A stretch of DNA of 64,000 bases from Prochlorococcus marinus str. MIT 1214. GTDB lineage: Bacteria; Cyanobacteriota; Cyanobacteriia; PCC-6307; Cyanobiaceae. Of the stretch, positions 11,719 through 42,309 are shown piece after piece. The notes below the pieces were generated by a model. It did no database searches. It worked only from the letters and a program-made list of their open reading frames with translations, and was not told the DNA's origin. The stretch is from positions 620,001 through 684,000 of the forward strand of contig NZ_CP114777.1 in NCBI RefSeq assembly GCF_027359355.1, in the 5' to 3' direction. The position numbers and the translations under genes were made by a program. Each line of letters opens with the position of its first letter. Within the stretch, counting starts at the first letter, position 1.

Positions 11719-11779
11719 GTGAGAGCCTTTGCTCTCACACTCCTCACACTCCACATAACCCGAATTATTCGGGTTTTTC
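11719..11779 (+). ncRNA. yfr1: Yfr1 small regulatory RNA
   Basis: The sequence has the complete Yfr1 architecture. An 8-bp stem (11719-11726 with 11731-11738, loop CTTT) is followed by the unpaired ultra-conserved motif ACTCCTCACAC at 11739-11749. A short spacer leads to a terminator hairpin from 11757 (AACCCGAA with TTCGGGTT) and a T-run. Its position between guaB and trxA is the location known in cyanobacteria. Yfr1 is an abundant antisense-type regulator that pairs with target leaders through the CUCCUCAC motif; published targets include outer-membrane protein mRNAs. Confidence 0.95.
11757..11779 (+). terminator. Rho-independent terminator of Yfr1
   Basis: Eight-base-pair stem with a three-base loop followed by TTTTT. 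It forms the 3' end of Yfr1 and lies 85 bases after guaB. Confidence 0.9.
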
Positions 11780-35727: not shown

Positions 35728-36816
35728 TCAATCAGAAAGAGTAACCCTAGCGTTATCAAGATTACTAATTGAATCAGTAACCTTCTTGAAATCAAAGCCT
35801 AAAGCACGTATTGCATGCCAAAGGTGACCTTGAATGAAGAAAAAACCAAGGTAGTAGTGAACATTTGTTAGCCAAGCTCTTGAAGTATGGCCACTAACAA
35901 CACCAGTCATATCAGCAGTATCAATCCAATAAGGAGATATACCAAATTTAAGAGCTAATGTTTCTCCATACCAGGCTTCGGGATAAACAGTTGTATTTGT
36001 TGCACACCAGAAAGCTGCAATAATCGCCATCCAACCAATACCAGCAAGAGACCATGAAAGTACAGCTTCAGCAGAAAGAATATTCTTTCCTTTGAATTCG
36101 GTGTACTCGCCTACTTGCTTAGTAGCGATATGAAATGCTCCACCTGTTATCTCTACAAATGCTAAAAATGCATGGCCACCCATTACATCCTCAAGACTAT
36201 CGATAGCCAAGAAATCAAACTGATGATTCCAAATGTTGGTCAAATTTAAGTTGTACTCGACTTGTCGAACTGCTCCTAAGGCAGGATCATAAATACCATG
36301 AATTCGAGCCCACTCAACAAACCAAATACAGGCAACGCCAAAGAAAATCAAATGGTGACCCAGGATAAAAGTCTGATTATCTGGATTATCCCATTCAAGC
36401 TTGTATCTTGCTGCCTGACGGTGCTCAGGGCGATCATCAGCAAACAAACCTGAACTATTTTGGGTATCTTCGCTAAAGATCAAAGAATGCAATAGGCCTG
36501 CACCCGCATATACCATTGAACAAATCAGATGGAATACGCCGATAAAAGCAATTGATGTGCCATCGAATACTGTTCCAGTTGGGTCAAATCCAATGCCAAT
36601 AGAAGCAAGATGTGGGATACTCACCATTCCCTGGTGTCCCATTGGAATATCTGGGTTGTATCTAGCGAGCTCCCAAAGTGTGTTGGCACCAGCTGCAAAA
36701 CAAATCAATCCTGTATGAGCAACATGCGAGCCAATAAATCGGCTTGACTTATTTGTTACAACAGAATTACCAACCCACCACCCGTAAGTGACGTCTGGGT
36801 TTCCGTAGGACTGCAT
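35728..36816 (-). CDS. pcb: Pcb chlorophyll a/b-binding light-harvesting protein, copy 4 (divergent)
   Basis: Antenna protein of 362 residues. The helices and ligand segments are conserved, but it departs from the other copies in two places. The second helix region reads HQGMVSIPHLASIGIGFDPTGTVFDG, and the stromal/lumenal loop has an insertion (SEDTQNSSGLFADDRPEHRQ). A short deletion is seen near the last loop (TADMTGVVSGHTSRAW). It is the most divergent copy in the array and may serve a different photosystem or condition; in other strains some pcb genes are iron-stress-induced and PSI-associated. Confidence 0.96.
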   Translation of the reverse strand: MQSYGNPDVTYGWWVGNSVVTNKSSRFIGSHVAHTGLICFAAGANTLWELARYNPDIPMGHQGMVSIPHLASIGIGFDPTGTVFDGTSIAFIGVFHLICSMVYAGAGLLHSLIFSEDTQNSSGLFADDRPEHRQAARYKLEWDNPDNQTFILGHHLIFFGVACIWFVEWARIHGIYDPALGAVRQVEYNLNLTNIWNHQFDFLAIDSLEDVMGGHAFLAFVEITGGAFHIATKQVGEYTEFKGKNILSAEAVLSWSLAGIGWMAIIAAFWCATNTTVYPEAWYGETLALKFGISPYWIDTADMTGVVSGHTSRAWLTNVHYYLGFFFIQGHLWHAIRALGFDFKKVTDSISNLDNARVTLSD

Positions 36817-37082: not shown

Positions 37083-38147
37083 CTAGCCATTAAGAGTAAC
37101 TTTTGCGGTATCTAAGCTCGCAACAGCATTTGTAACTCTTCTAAAGTCAAAGCCTAATGCACGAATTGCATGCCATAAATGACCTTGTAAAAAGAAAAAT
37201 CCAAAATAATAATGGACATTGGTTAATGCAGCTCTTGTGGTGTGACCTGCAAATGCAGTGCTATCACTTAGATCTGCGGTATCAATCCAGTAGGGAGAAA
37301 TACCAAATTTCAAAGCCAGAGGTTCTCCATACCAAGCCTCGGGATAAACAGTTGTATTTGTTGCGCACCAGAAAGCTGCGACAATAGCCATCCAACCAAT
37401 ACCGGCCAAAGAGAAAGAAAGTACCGCTTCAGCAGAAAGAATATTCTTTCCTTTGAATTCGGTGTATTCGCCTACTTGCTTAGTGGCGATATGAAATGCT
37501 CCACCTGCTATCTCTACAAATGCTAAAAATGCATGCCCACCAAGAACGTCTTCAAGATTATCAATAGCCAAGAAATCAAATTGATGATTCCAAATATTGG
37601 TCAGATTAAGGTTGTATTCAACTTGTCTAACAGCTCCTATTGCAGGGTCATAAATTCCGTGAATTCTGGCCCATTCAACAAATGCTATGCAAGCGACACC
37701 AAAGAAAATCAAATGGTGACCAAGAATGAATGTCAAGTTATCCGGATTGTCCCATTCAAGCTTAAATTTTTCAGTTGTAGGTCCTGGTCCATCAGCTAAA
37801 TCACCATCAAAAAGAAGAGAGTGAGAAAGAGCTCCTCCTGCATATACAAGCGAAGCAATAATATGCACAATTGCTACAGACGCAACATTCGCCCCAGTCC
37901 AGACACCTGCATCATCAAATCCAATCCCAATAGATGCAAGATGAGCAAGAAAAATAGAGCTTTGATGACCCATAGCGATAGAAGGATCAAACCTGGCCAA
38001 CTCCCAAAGAGTGCTAGCTCCCGCAGCAAATGATATTAAGCCGGTGTGACCTGCATGAGCTGCAATAAACTTTCCGGCGCGGTTAGTAACCCTTGAATTA
38101 CCAGCCCACCAACCATAGGTGACATCTGGATTTCCATAGGTCTGCAT
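37083..38147 (-). CDS. pcb: Pcb chlorophyll a/b-binding light-harvesting protein, copy 5
   Basis: Antenna protein of 354 residues, start MQTYGNPDVTYGWW. It shares the loop VEYNLNLTNIWNHQFDFLAID and most of its C-terminal half with copies 3 and 4. Its fourth-helix segment reads FILGHHLIFFGVACIAFVEW, where the other copies have IWFVEW. The GPGPTTEKFKLEW loop is closest to copy 1. The mosaic of similarities suggests gene conversion among the copies. First gene of the array in transcription order. Confidence 0.96.
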   Translation of the reverse strand: MQTYGNPDVTYGWWAGNSRVTNRAGKFIAAHAGHTGLISFAAGASTLWELARFDPSIAMGHQSSIFLAHLASIGIGFDDAGVWTGANVASVAIVHIIASLVYAGGALSHSLLFDGDLADGPGPTTEKFKLEWDNPDNLTFILGHHLIFFGVACIAFVEWARIHGIYDPAIGAVRQVEYNLNLTNIWNHQFDFLAIDNLEDVLGGHAFLAFVEIAGGAFHIATKQVGEYTEFKGKNILSAEAVLSFSLAGIGWMAIVAAFWCATNTTVYPEAWYGEPLALKFGISPYWIDTADLSDSTAFAGHTTRAALTNVHYYFGFFFLQGHLWHAIRALGFDFRRVTNAVASLDTAKVTLNG

Positions 38148-39103: not shown

Positions 39104-40594
39104 GTGAGAAAAATATTCCTGGTATTTCCAAATCAATTATTCAAAATAAAAAATCAATTTTCTGATATTAAACATATTGCTTTAATCCAAGATAACTTAT
39201 TTTTTGGCTGTGATTCTCAATGGAAACAAAAATTTCATTGTCAAAAAATAATTTTTCACAAAGCCAGTATGGACTCCTACGAAGAAAATCTTAAAAGGAA
39301 TGGCTTTAATGTGATTTATATAAAACATAAAAAAGAAAGCAGAACTGAAGAGTATCTAAATTATATTGCAGCAAAAGGTTTTAATTATTTCATTACTTAT
39401 GAAATGTTTGATTGGTCGCTAGAAAAAAGAATTAATGATTTCTCTTTGAAAAATAATACAAAGTTAGAAATAAGAAAAAACGATATGTTCTTAACTTGTC
39501 CAGAAATATCTGATGAAATCCTTAATCAAAAAAAAATTAATGGAATGCAGAAATTCTATAAACTTCAAAGACTAAAATTAAATATTCTAATTGAGAAAGA
39601 TGGTTCGCCAACCGGGGGCAAATGGAGTTTTGACAAAATCAATAGAAAGAAGCTACCAAATTCAATTAAAGTACCGAGAATCCCAATTATAAAAAATAAC
39701 AAATTCTTAGATAAAGCAAAGAAAGAAGTTTCAATAAATTATAAAGATTATTATGGGAGGATAGAAAAATTTAATTATCCACTTTCTCATAAAGATGCTG
39801 AAGAATGGTTGGATGATTTTTTAATTGAAAGATTTAATCTATTTGGAGATTACGAAGATGCAATACATTCATATCATAGGAACCTTTGGCATAGTGTTCT
39901 TTCTCCATTAATTAATTCTGGCTTACTTACTCCAAGCCAAATAATAGATAAATCTTGCGATTTTTACCAATCAAATAATATTTCTATTAATTCCTTTGAA
40001 GGATTTATTAGACAAATTATTGGCTGGCGTGAATTCATCCTATTAATGTATAAACGAAATAGTTTAGAACTTAGAAATGGAAACTTCTGGAATTTTGAGG
40101 ATAAACCAATACCATCTAGTTTTTACACTGGTCAAACAGGAATAAGGCCTTTGGATGACTCAATACAAAATATTTTAGAAACCGGATATGCACATCATAT
40201 AGAAAGGCTAATGATAGTTGGAAATTTAATGCTTCTATGCAGATTCCATCCTAATCAAGTATACAAATGGTTTATGGAATTATTTATAGATTCATATGAT
40301 TGGGTTATGGTTCCAAATGTTTATGGAATGAGTCAATTTTCAGATGGAGGACTATTTACAACTAAACCATATATTTCAGGTTCTAATTATGTCCTAAAAA
40401 TGTCTAACTATAAATCTGAAGATTGGTGCTCAATTTGGGATAGTCTTTTTTGGACATTCATAGATGACTATAAAAATAAGTTTAAGGGCCAATATCGATT
40501 GTCTATGATTTTAAGAAATCTAGAAAAAATGGATCCTAATAAAAAAATGAATCATAGACGTAATGCTTATGACTTCATGTCTAAACTTACTTAA
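39104..40594 (+). CDS. Photolyase-related protein (DPRP / FeS-BCP family)
   Basis: A 496-residue protein of the deoxyribodipyrimidine photolyase-related family, whose members include PhrB-type (6-4) photolyases. The N-terminus FLVFPNQLF and ALIQDNLFF is typical. The FAD-binding helical part contains FEGFIRQIIGWREFI, FYTGQTGIRPLDDSI, HHIERLMIVGNLMLL and NVYGMSQFSDGG. In classical members a Cys-rich block binds a 4Fe-4S cluster. Here the region after MSNY (about residues 430-445) is shortened to SEDWCSIWDSLFW with one Cys, so the cluster is probably absent. GTG start. Confidence 0.9.
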   Translation: MRKIFLVFPNQLFKIKNQFSDIKHIALIQDNLFFGCDSQWKQKFHCQKIIFHKASMDSYEENLKRNGFNVIYIKHKKESRTEEYLNYIAAKGFNYFITYEMFDWSLEKRINDFSLKNNTKLEIRKNDMFLTCPEISDEILNQKKINGMQKFYKLQRLKLNILIEKDGSPTGGKWSFDKINRKKLPNSIKVPRIPIIKNNKFLDKAKKEVSINYKDYYGRIEKFNYPLSHKDAEEWLDDFLIERFNLFGDYEDAIHSYHRNLWHSVLSPLINSGLLTPSQIIDKSCDFYQSNNISINSFEGFIRQIIGWREFILLMYKRNSLELRNGNFWNFEDKPIPSSFYTGQTGIRPLDDSIQNILETGYAHHIERLMIVGNLMLLCRFHPNQVYKWFMELFIDSYDWVMVPNVYGMSQFSDGGLFTTKPYISGSNYVLKMSNYKSEDWCSIWDSLFWTFIDDYKNKFKGQYRLSMILRNLEKMDPNKKMNHRRNAYDFMSKLT

Positions 40595-40718: not shown

Positions 40719-41183
40719 GTGAAGCTTAAAATCGGGGATAGTATTCCATCGTTTTCTTTAAAAGATCAAAATGGAAACATCAGAACATCAAATAAATTGA
40801 AAAAGTCTCTGGTTTTATTTTTTTACCCAAAAGACGATACTCCTGGTTGTACTATTGAAGCTTGTGGCTTCCGAGACAAATATGATCTTTTTAAAATTTT
40901 AGGTGCTGAAGTTTGGGGAATAAGCAATGGTAATCGTCAAAGTCATCTTATATTTGCAAATAAAAATAACCTTCAGTATCCATTACTTTGCGATCATAAT
41001 AATATCCTTAGAAAACAATTTGGGGTACAGAAAAAGCTAGGATTCATCGAAGGAAGAGTAACCTATATAATAAATTCTGAAGGAATTATCAAACATATAT
41101 TTGAAGACCTTCTAAATGGTCCAGCTCATATAAAAGAAGCTATAAAAGCATTAAAAGAACTTCAATTATTAGAAAATAATTAA
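40719..41183 (+). CDS. bcp: Peroxiredoxin, PrxQ/Bcp type
   Basis: Thiol peroxidase of 154 residues that reduces hydrogen or organic peroxides using thioredoxin. The peroxidatic Cys44 is in TPGCTIEACGFRD, with the resolving Cys49 five residues later, the PrxQ signature. The conserved WGISNGNRQSH and PLLCDHNN follow. GTG start at 40719. It lies 13 bases before the photolyase-domain gene, so a link to light-driven oxidative stress is plausible. Confidence 0.93.
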   Translation: MKLKIGDSIPSFSLKDQNGNIRTSNKLKKSLVLFFYPKDDTPGCTIEACGFRDKYDLFKILGAEVWGISNGNRQSHLIFANKNNLQYPLLCDHNNILRKQFGVQKKLGFIEGRVTYIINSEGIIKHIFEDLLNGPAHIKEAIKALKELQLLENN

Positions 41184-41196
41184 AATTAATACTCTA

Positions 41197-42309
41197 ATGA
41201 ATATTTTTAAAGAGGCTAATGATGTATTAGATGATTTTATTATCAACCGTCTTGTTTCATACCATGAGCTAAGAAATTACGATTACGGAATAGAAAACCG
41301 AACTAATGTTTCTAATATTTCTAAATATACATCTCATAGAATACTTTACGAATATGATATACTTGAAAAATTAAAAAAATTTGACAAGACAAAAAAGTAT
41401 ACTGATGAAATTCTCTGGAGGATATATTGGAAGGGTTACCTTGAAAATCATAAATCAATATGGTTTGAATATATAAATTTCAAAGAAAATTCAAATTTTT
41501 CTAACTTAAATAATGCTATGGATGGTAATACAGGTATAGATTGCTTTGATACATGGATAGATGAGCTTAGAGATAATAACTATTTACATAATCACTCAAG
41601 GATGTGGTTTGCAAGCATATGGATTTTTACTTTAGGACTTCCATGGCAACTAGGAGCAAGGTTTTTTATGAAACATCTTTTTGATGGGGACGCTTCATCA
41701 AACACCCTTAGCTGGAGATGGGTAGCAGGTATGCATACAAATAAGAGGCCTTACTTAGCATCCAAGAAAAACATCGATAAGTACACAATTAATCGATTCC
41801 GAAAGACTCACTTTAGCGTATCGAAAAATATTAATATCATAAAATATAATCCTCTTCAATCAAATAAAATTCCAGTTCAAAGAAATTTTACTATTAGTAA
41901 GATTCTACTAATGTTTGATAATGATATGAATATTCTGAACAGATCTAAGTTATTTAATTTATACTCAAAAGTTTATATAATTAGTAATGGAATCATCAAT
42001 GATGGCTTTGAGCTAAGCGAGAAAGTAAGCAAATTTAAACTAGGTTTAATTGACAATATAAATAAGTTAATCCCAAACTCAGAAGTATTAAAATCAACTG
42101 ACATAGAAATCCTTTTTTGTGATCACAATTTTATTGATGTTATCTACCCAGGAGTTGGGCATAATCTAGATTTAATAAATAAATTCGCTAGTCAAAATCA
42201 AATTATTATTAATTATATATACAGAGAAGAAGATCTTAGATATTGGAATTATGCTAACTCAGGCTTTTATAAATTTAGGACTTCATTTTATAGACTGAAT
42301 ATGATCTAA
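41197..42309 (+). CDS. Photolyase FAD-binding domain protein without antenna domain
   Basis: A 370-residue protein that aligns only with the C-terminal FAD-binding half of DNA photolyases/cryptochromes: SKYTSHRILYEYDILEKL, DEILWRIYWKGYL, GIDCFDTWIDELRDNNYLHNHSRMWFAS, LPWQLGARFFMKHLFDGDASSNTLSWRWVAG. The N-terminal alpha/beta domain that holds the light-harvesting cofactor is missing. The last 150 residues are an unrecognised extension (FTISKILLMFDNDMN). It follows bcp closely. DNA repair versus signalling cannot be decided. Confidence 0.87.
   Translation: MNIFKEANDVLDDFIINRLVSYHELRNYDYGIENRTNVSNISKYTSHRILYEYDILEKLKKFDKTKKYTDEILWRIYWKGYLENHKSIWFEYINFKENSNFSNLNNAMDGNTGIDCFDTWIDELRDNNYLHNHSRMWFASIWIFTLGLPWQLGARFFMKHLFDGDASSNTLSWRWVAGMHTNKRPYLASKKNIDKYTINRFRKTHFSVSKNINIIKYNPLQSNKIPVQRNFTISKILLMFDNDMNILNRSKLFNLYSKVYIISNGIINDGFELSEKVSKFKLGLIDNINKLIPNSEVLKSTDIEILFCDHNFIDVIYPGVGHNLDLINKFASQNQIIINYIYREEDLRYWNYANSGFYKFRTSFYRLNMI

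Follow-up and report, generated by a model that had tools for sequence, protein, structure and literature searches.

The phr2 gene of Prochlorococcus marinus str. MIT 1214 raises the question whether a photolyase without any of the cysteines that hold the [4Fe-4S] cluster of its relatives can still be a working repair enzyme, and how it came to do without the cluster. The gene occupies positions 39104..40594 on the + strand of the window, by which the whole stretch of 64,000 nucleotides analysed here is meant. Its product would, with a probability of about 0.8, belong to the cluster-free subgroup of prokaryotic (6-4) photolyases described as Phr2 or PromaPL and be functional; the repair activity and the iron-free state of this particular protein are both read from its sequence and from a structural model.

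The phr2 gene and its product

The open reading frame comprises 496 codons with a GTG start and no internal stops. Over residues 6-225, the 496 aa product matches the Pfam family DPRP (PF04244, E 2.5e-50), and the score for FAD_binding_7, 25.6 bits, falls slightly below the cut-off of 27. At E ≤ 0.001 the product matches eight distinct PDB sequences, which comprise (6-4) photolyases or photolyase-related proteins and CryB; the closest is 9hnk. With its DPRP N-terminal domain, photolyase FAD domain and predicted PhrB fold, the protein has the domain plan of the DPRP/PhrB group. The gene is single-copy in its 1.93 Mb single-contig genome, and it is under purifying selection, the dN/dS values lying between 0.12 and 0.22 in 16/16 comparisons with full-length orthologues of the same genus.

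The size of the genome and two pcb-like genes in the window suggest a low-light I (LLI) Prochlorococcus. In the whole genome (G000), the photolyase FAD domain (PF03441) was found three times and PF00875 once, compared with the four photolyase-type genes that PMC9426592 gives in its account of LLI strains, which carry phr2 according to the same account (mBio 2022). An Rfam scan of the window returned no match at phr2; the sole match at the gathering threshold was the small RNA Yfr1 (11719-11777, +, 64.5 bits).

The iron-sulfur ligand sites

In PhrB (PDB 4dja), the [4Fe-4S] ligands are Cys 350, 438, 441 and 454 according to the text of PMC3204975. Alignment with PhrB, the check that the initial annotation had named, left cysteine at 0/4 of these places in the window protein: Cys350 corresponds to Pro349 (40148..40150, +), Cys438 to Lys437 and Cys454 to Ser443, and the Cys441 place falls within a ten-residue deletion. 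The last three places belong to a shortened segment, Lys437-Ser443 (40412..40432, +), which contains Trp441 and the non-ligand Cys442; Trp445 (40436..40438, +) stands at the place of PhrB Phe456. The observation of absent ligands, made from the letters alone, was therefore confirmed and had been slightly understated, since none of the four is kept.

The comparison set was drawn from 178 loci, of which 162 were used (14 under 400 aa and two without a usable row were left out), together with two PDB chains, the part of PhrB that was compared starting at residue 43; one locus (L098), counted among the 162 and among the cluster-free rows below, duplicates the locus of the window itself. Two kinds of row are found, without intermediates: 23 have all four cysteines (FeS rows) and 141 have none. 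The position of Pro349 is Pro in 141/141 cluster-free rows and Cys in 23/23 FeS rows, that of Trp445 is Trp in 141/141 and Phe in 22/23, respectively, and Trp441 is likewise present in all 141. The segment Met433-Trp450 measures 18 residues in 140/141 cluster-free rows as against 28 in 21/23 FeS rows, which bears out the earlier remark that the Cys-rich stretch is shortened, here by ten residues. As 141 rows show the same state, neither chance nor a sequencing error can account for it.

It had also been noted that only one Cys remains between MSNY and LFW, which is literally true for Cys442, though this residue is not a remnant of a ligand: it lies 8 residues before Trp450, whereas the distance from the last ligand to the matching Trp is 7 in 23/23 FeS rows. 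Its place is Cys in 98/141 cluster-free rows and Gln in 30. That a cluster might still be bound through other residues, for instance Cys379, Cys442 and Cys285 plus a non-Cys ligand, gains something from the conservation of Cys379 in at least 90% of the 72 rows of a second alignment (A2, the window and 71 of the 80 named loci introduced below, with L103, L108 and seven loci whose match range contains a stop left out). It is nevertheless scarcely credible, given that the protein has six Cys in all (36, 46, 132, 285, 379 and 442), of which the catalytic part contains only three, that Cys442 is missing in 43/141 cluster-free rows, that the loop bearing the FeS ligands is deleted in 140/141, and that PromaPL is described as cluster-free in the account of PMC9426592. 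No shifted set of four was found among the six Cys, and the four conserved, [4Fe-4S]-binding Cys that define the FeS-BCP subtype are absent from the window protein.

The Pro/Trp set is not indispensable, since one cluster-free protein (L245, genome G487, from the phylum of Chitinophaga) lacks the ligands and also the equivalents of Pro349, Trp441 and Trp445; it lies on the cluster-free side of the tree. In the text passages of the literature searched, no account of the Pro/Trp replacement was found. A second pair of exchanges, Q253E and Q368E, was considered as a fixed partner of cluster absence and rejected after a sample not chosen by sequence pattern had been drawn: the FeS row L230 has Glu at both places, and the cluster-free L236, L244 and L246 have Gln253. 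Glu368 is moreover contained in the search pattern that yielded the 80 named loci.

Genomic neighbourhood

On one side of phr2 lie two pcb-like genes (35728-36816, and 37083-38147 with a PF00421 match), and on the other side a peroxiredoxin gene (40719..41183, +; AhpC-TSA family, PrxQ/BCP-like), followed by phr7 (41197..42309, +), a second photolyase-family gene with an N-terminal FAD_binding_7 domain (E 8.5e-19), named after PMC9426592. All 17 same-genus loci with a full-length phr2 have a pcb gene on one side and the adjoining peroxiredoxin gene on the other, and a phr7 match follows in 15 of the 17, in one of the 15 in pieces. Among the 80 named loci, 24 have a further photolyase-family match (E ≤ 1e-6) within flanks of up to 3 kb, most of these matches being weak. 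Such photolyase-family neighbours fit a role in DNA repair.

The arrangement phr2-peroxiredoxin-phr7 looks eroded in some same-genus genomes, all drafts in which artefacts may occur: phr2 is broken into six stop-bearing pieces in G013, and phr7 is likewise broken up, with stops, in G018; G007 retains no more than fragments of the two genes, G029 no more than the end of phr7, and phr7 is absent from G014. In Silicibacter lacuscaerulensis (Roseobacteraceae; L164, 1522-4491), a phr7 homologue (E 1e-63) directly precedes a cluster-free photolyase, a pair as in the window, which hints at transfer as a package. In the phr7 product of the window, the C-x-x-C...C stretch that belongs to the cluster site of SPL proteins is missing, and Cys116 (41542-41544) is kept at the first-ligand place (TGIDCFD); the same residue is Cys in the Silicibacter homologue and Phe in that of genome G208. 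In phr2 and phr7 the window has a pair of neighbouring photolyase genes, both for cluster-free proteins, whose two families each include clustered relatives.

The lesion site and the substrate

The residues of the lesion site are intact in the window protein: Gln304 (40013..40015, +), His365 (40196..40198, +), Asp177, Asp252, Tyr423 and Tyr429 stand for Gln306, His366, Asp179, Asp254, Tyr424 and Tyr430 of PhrB. Throughout the alignment, the counterparts of PhrB His366, Leu370, Met410, Tyr424, Tyr430, Asp179, Asp254, Arg183 and Trp390 are conserved in 164/164 rows. At the places of Gln306 and His366, Gln and His occur in 43/43 rows of the (6-4) family, in contrast to Glu and Asn in 14/14 SPL, Phr7 and class I rows. 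Glu at the first of these places is what we take to be a mark of CPD repair, and the window protein does not have this Glu + Asn pair. Asn as the corresponding mark at the second place rests on the mutagenesis text of PMC4619345, according to which (6-4) repair by PhrB is abolished in H366N; there, Tyr424 and Tyr430 are said to matter, and Trp342 and Trp390 to carry photoreduction. The Trp342 place is Tyr in the window protein, as it is in 115/141 cluster-free rows, and this exchange counts against the reading as a working photolyase. The roles assigned here to lesion-site residues and to the cluster are taken from the text of papers, PMC4619345 among them.

These residues have a direct bearing on the proposal that the cluster-free form is a CPD photolyase, the substrate having changed without the cluster. 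It is the prediction of the authors of the mBio 2022 study (PMC9426592), in whose account a (6-4) photolyase seems not to be encoded by any gene of high-light (HL) or LLI Prochlorococcus, and it finds further support in UV-B effects stronger than those of UV-C in Synechococcus RS9916, as described there. Gln and His in place of Glu and Asn, and the consequence of H366N for PhrB, speak against it, as does the naming of PromaPL as a (6-4) photolyase in the texts of PMC9178010 and PMC9426592, both citing Ma et al. 2019. With the (6-4) lesion-site residues intact, CPD repair by the cluster-free form is considered unlikely, and we infer (6-4) repair for the window copy from its sequence. The existence of a cluster-free clade with these residues also matters for a published disagreement over the presence of (6-4) photolyases in high-light and LLI Prochlorococcus, in which the residues point against the mBio statement.

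Predicted fold and proposed mechanism

An AlphaFold2 model built from 72 aligned sequences (pLDDT 92.4, pTM 0.93; a single-sequence model with pLDDT 38.7 was set aside) predicts that the phr2 product has the whole PhrB fold. Its highest-scoring PDB matches are FeS-BCPs, 8ijy with Z 43.2 and 4dja with Z 42.6 and an rmsd of 2.2 over 485 residues; the next kind of PDB structure, Thermus photolyase (2j07), follows at Z 26.6. Where the ligand sites used to be, helices of the model begin (residues 348 and 440).

The fold is shared by CryB of Rhodobacter (3zxs, Z 42.2), whose regulatory effects are cited in the text of PMC9178010, so that the phr2 product might be viewed as a cryptochrome-like light sensor instead of a repair enzyme. 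Conservation of lesion-site residues in every row and the photolyase-family neighbours make this highly unlikely, in line with the UV phenotype of the Synechococcus orthologue: according to PMC9426592, the phr2 mutant of strain RS9916 is UV-sensitive, and phr2 protects E. coli.

As a (6-4) photolyase, Phr2 would bind UV-damaged DNA, and blue light would excite its FADH-, either directly or via a putative antenna dye bound by the N-terminal domain (DMRL or 8-HDF in the DPRP/PhrB group). Next, an electron would pass from FADH- to the (6-4) photoproduct, with His365 aiding by a proton, and the lesion would be reversed. The [4Fe-4S] cluster that pins a roof-like subdomain in the PhrB relatives would be absent, its place being bridged by the turn shortened by ten residues, the Pro at the first ligand site and the two Trp, such that the fold may hold without iron. 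The packing role given here to Pro349, Trp441 and Trp445 is presumed. That PhrB Cys mutants are insoluble, as the text of PMC4619345 has it, implies that dispensing with the cluster is not trivial, which counts against the reading of phr2 as a working cluster-free photolyase. The cluster-free clade might even be seen as a natural rebuild of an iron-sulfur enzyme, in which Pro, two Trp and a ten-residue deletion replace [4Fe-4S] as the pin of the roof subdomain with (6-4) repair intact, a tentative idea to which we give somewhat less than even odds. If it is true, the cluster of the FeS-BCPs is structural and dispensable for catalysis.

Distribution of the cluster-free form

The 80 named loci comprise 37 Bacteroidota, 12 Verrucomicrobiota, 11 Planctomycetota, 10 Cyanobacteriota, 2 Ignavibacteriota, 2 Pseudomonadota, 1 each of Nitrospirota, Promethearchaeota and Balneolota, and 3 without a phylum, that is, 67 lie in phyla other than Cyanobacteriota; the carriers include a Lokiarchaeota MAG. 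Names among them such as Mucilaginibacter, Chitinophaga rhizophila, Hymenobacter frigidus, Dyadobacter alkalitolerans and Silicibacter lacuscaerulensis point to soil, roots, glaciers, deserts and a geothermal lake as habitats.

The named loci were found by patterns including HHIERL and are biased to cluster-free rows. The bias was checked by two draws made by Pfam family alone around the genomes of two named loci (G434 and G440). In the phylum of Chitinophaga (centre G434), the family occurs in 22/80 genomes, with 11 FeS proteins, 10 cluster-free ones that have the Pro and the two Trp (the centre included) and one, L245, that has neither the ligands nor the Pro/Trp set. In the phylum of Silicibacter (centre G440), it occurs in 30/150 genomes, 29 FeS and 1 cluster-free, the latter being the centre itself. 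Both forms are found inside one genus (code g7; FeS in G309, cluster-free in G214, G343 and G353), and a Polaribacter genome carries one of each (L195, L217).

The initial annotation had suggested that a cluster-free version would fit an iron-poor ocean. In its strong form, by which marine picocyanobacteria adapted to iron-poor sea water by abandoning the cluster, the suggestion can point to the window's own family, in which 49/57 genomes have a match and 41 of these 49 are cluster-free and 8 FeS, small marine genomes presumably being among the 41. As an account of the origin it did not hold up and must be judged very improbable: the form is widespread in other phyla, from Bacteroidota, Verrucomicrobiota and Planctomycetota to the Lokiarchaeota MAG, and the split, a single deep branch, predates the cyanobacterial one. 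Iron saving could still favour retention of the cluster-free form.

Phylogeny and the direction of change

In a tree of 110 rows, thinned at 80% identity and computed with the ligand columns excluded, FeS and cluster-free proteins are divided by one change (SH-aLRT 96). One change was likewise obtained, with support of 100, in a 97-row tree that includes the unbiased draws, again with the ligand columns excluded (59 FeS and 38 cluster-free rows; 46 rows hand-picked from the earlier 164, without L083, 50 from the draws, and L195).

The word 'lost', used early on for the ligands, stands as far as their absence is concerned; the direction is left undecided by the rooted trees. The SPL proteins of the window's family have TGLAC(M/I)D and C-x-x-C...CPF at the FeS-BCP ligand places, and since the same four ligands occur at the same places, a cluster in the common ancestor is likely; by this comparison of sequences, the cluster was likely lost rather than never there. 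However, in the two rooted trees (L083 and L067 were omitted from one of them) the outgroup tends to attach among the cluster-free rows, a placement that argues against one simple loss. A branch sets the cluster-free rows apart from all others in 10% and 33% of 200 bootstrap trees, and the FeS rows in 90% and 95%. Trees with the cluster-free rows held together are not rejected (AU p 0.423 and 0.419).

Comparison with known systems

The cluster-free type is already known in print (PMC9178010, PMC9426592), and the phr2 product is, as far as its sequence tells, an ordinary functional member of this known subgroup. In the text of PMC9178010, subgroup M consists of PromaPL and 19 others and is the only subgroup, out of seven, in which the four Cys are missing; PromaPL is aligned there with the ligand sites marked, according to the figure legend. 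Phr2 is equated with PromaPL and stated to be without a cluster in the account of PMC9426592. What the [4Fe-4S] cluster does in prokaryotic (6-4) photolyases has been called elusive (PMC12082625), and a large natural clade without the cluster and with the lesion-site residues offers a ready control for this question.

With PromaPL, subgroup M and the Phr2 of marine picocyanobacteria, the window protein has in common the genus group, the domain plan and the absence of ligands, and no difference was found in this comparison, which is one by description; it lacks the four Cys and lies on the cluster-free side of the single branch in a tree computed without PromaPL. Fold (Z 42.4-43.2 for the model) and lesion-site residues are shared with the FeS-BCPs PhrB (4dja), Cc(6-4)PL (9hnk) and SePhrB (8ijy), from which the window protein differs in the absence of all four Cys ligands, the ten-residue shorter loop, Pro349, Trp441 and Trp445. 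Phr7 and the SPL proteins (Phr4, Phr6) have a photolyase-family FAD domain as Phr2 does, the SPL ligands sitting at the FeS-BCP places, and Phr7, whose gene neighbours phr2, is likewise without the C-x-x-C...C part. Unlike Phr2, Phr7 and the SPL proteins have Glu and Asn at the lesion site, place the FAD domain first (as also described in the text of PMC9426592) and form separate clades.
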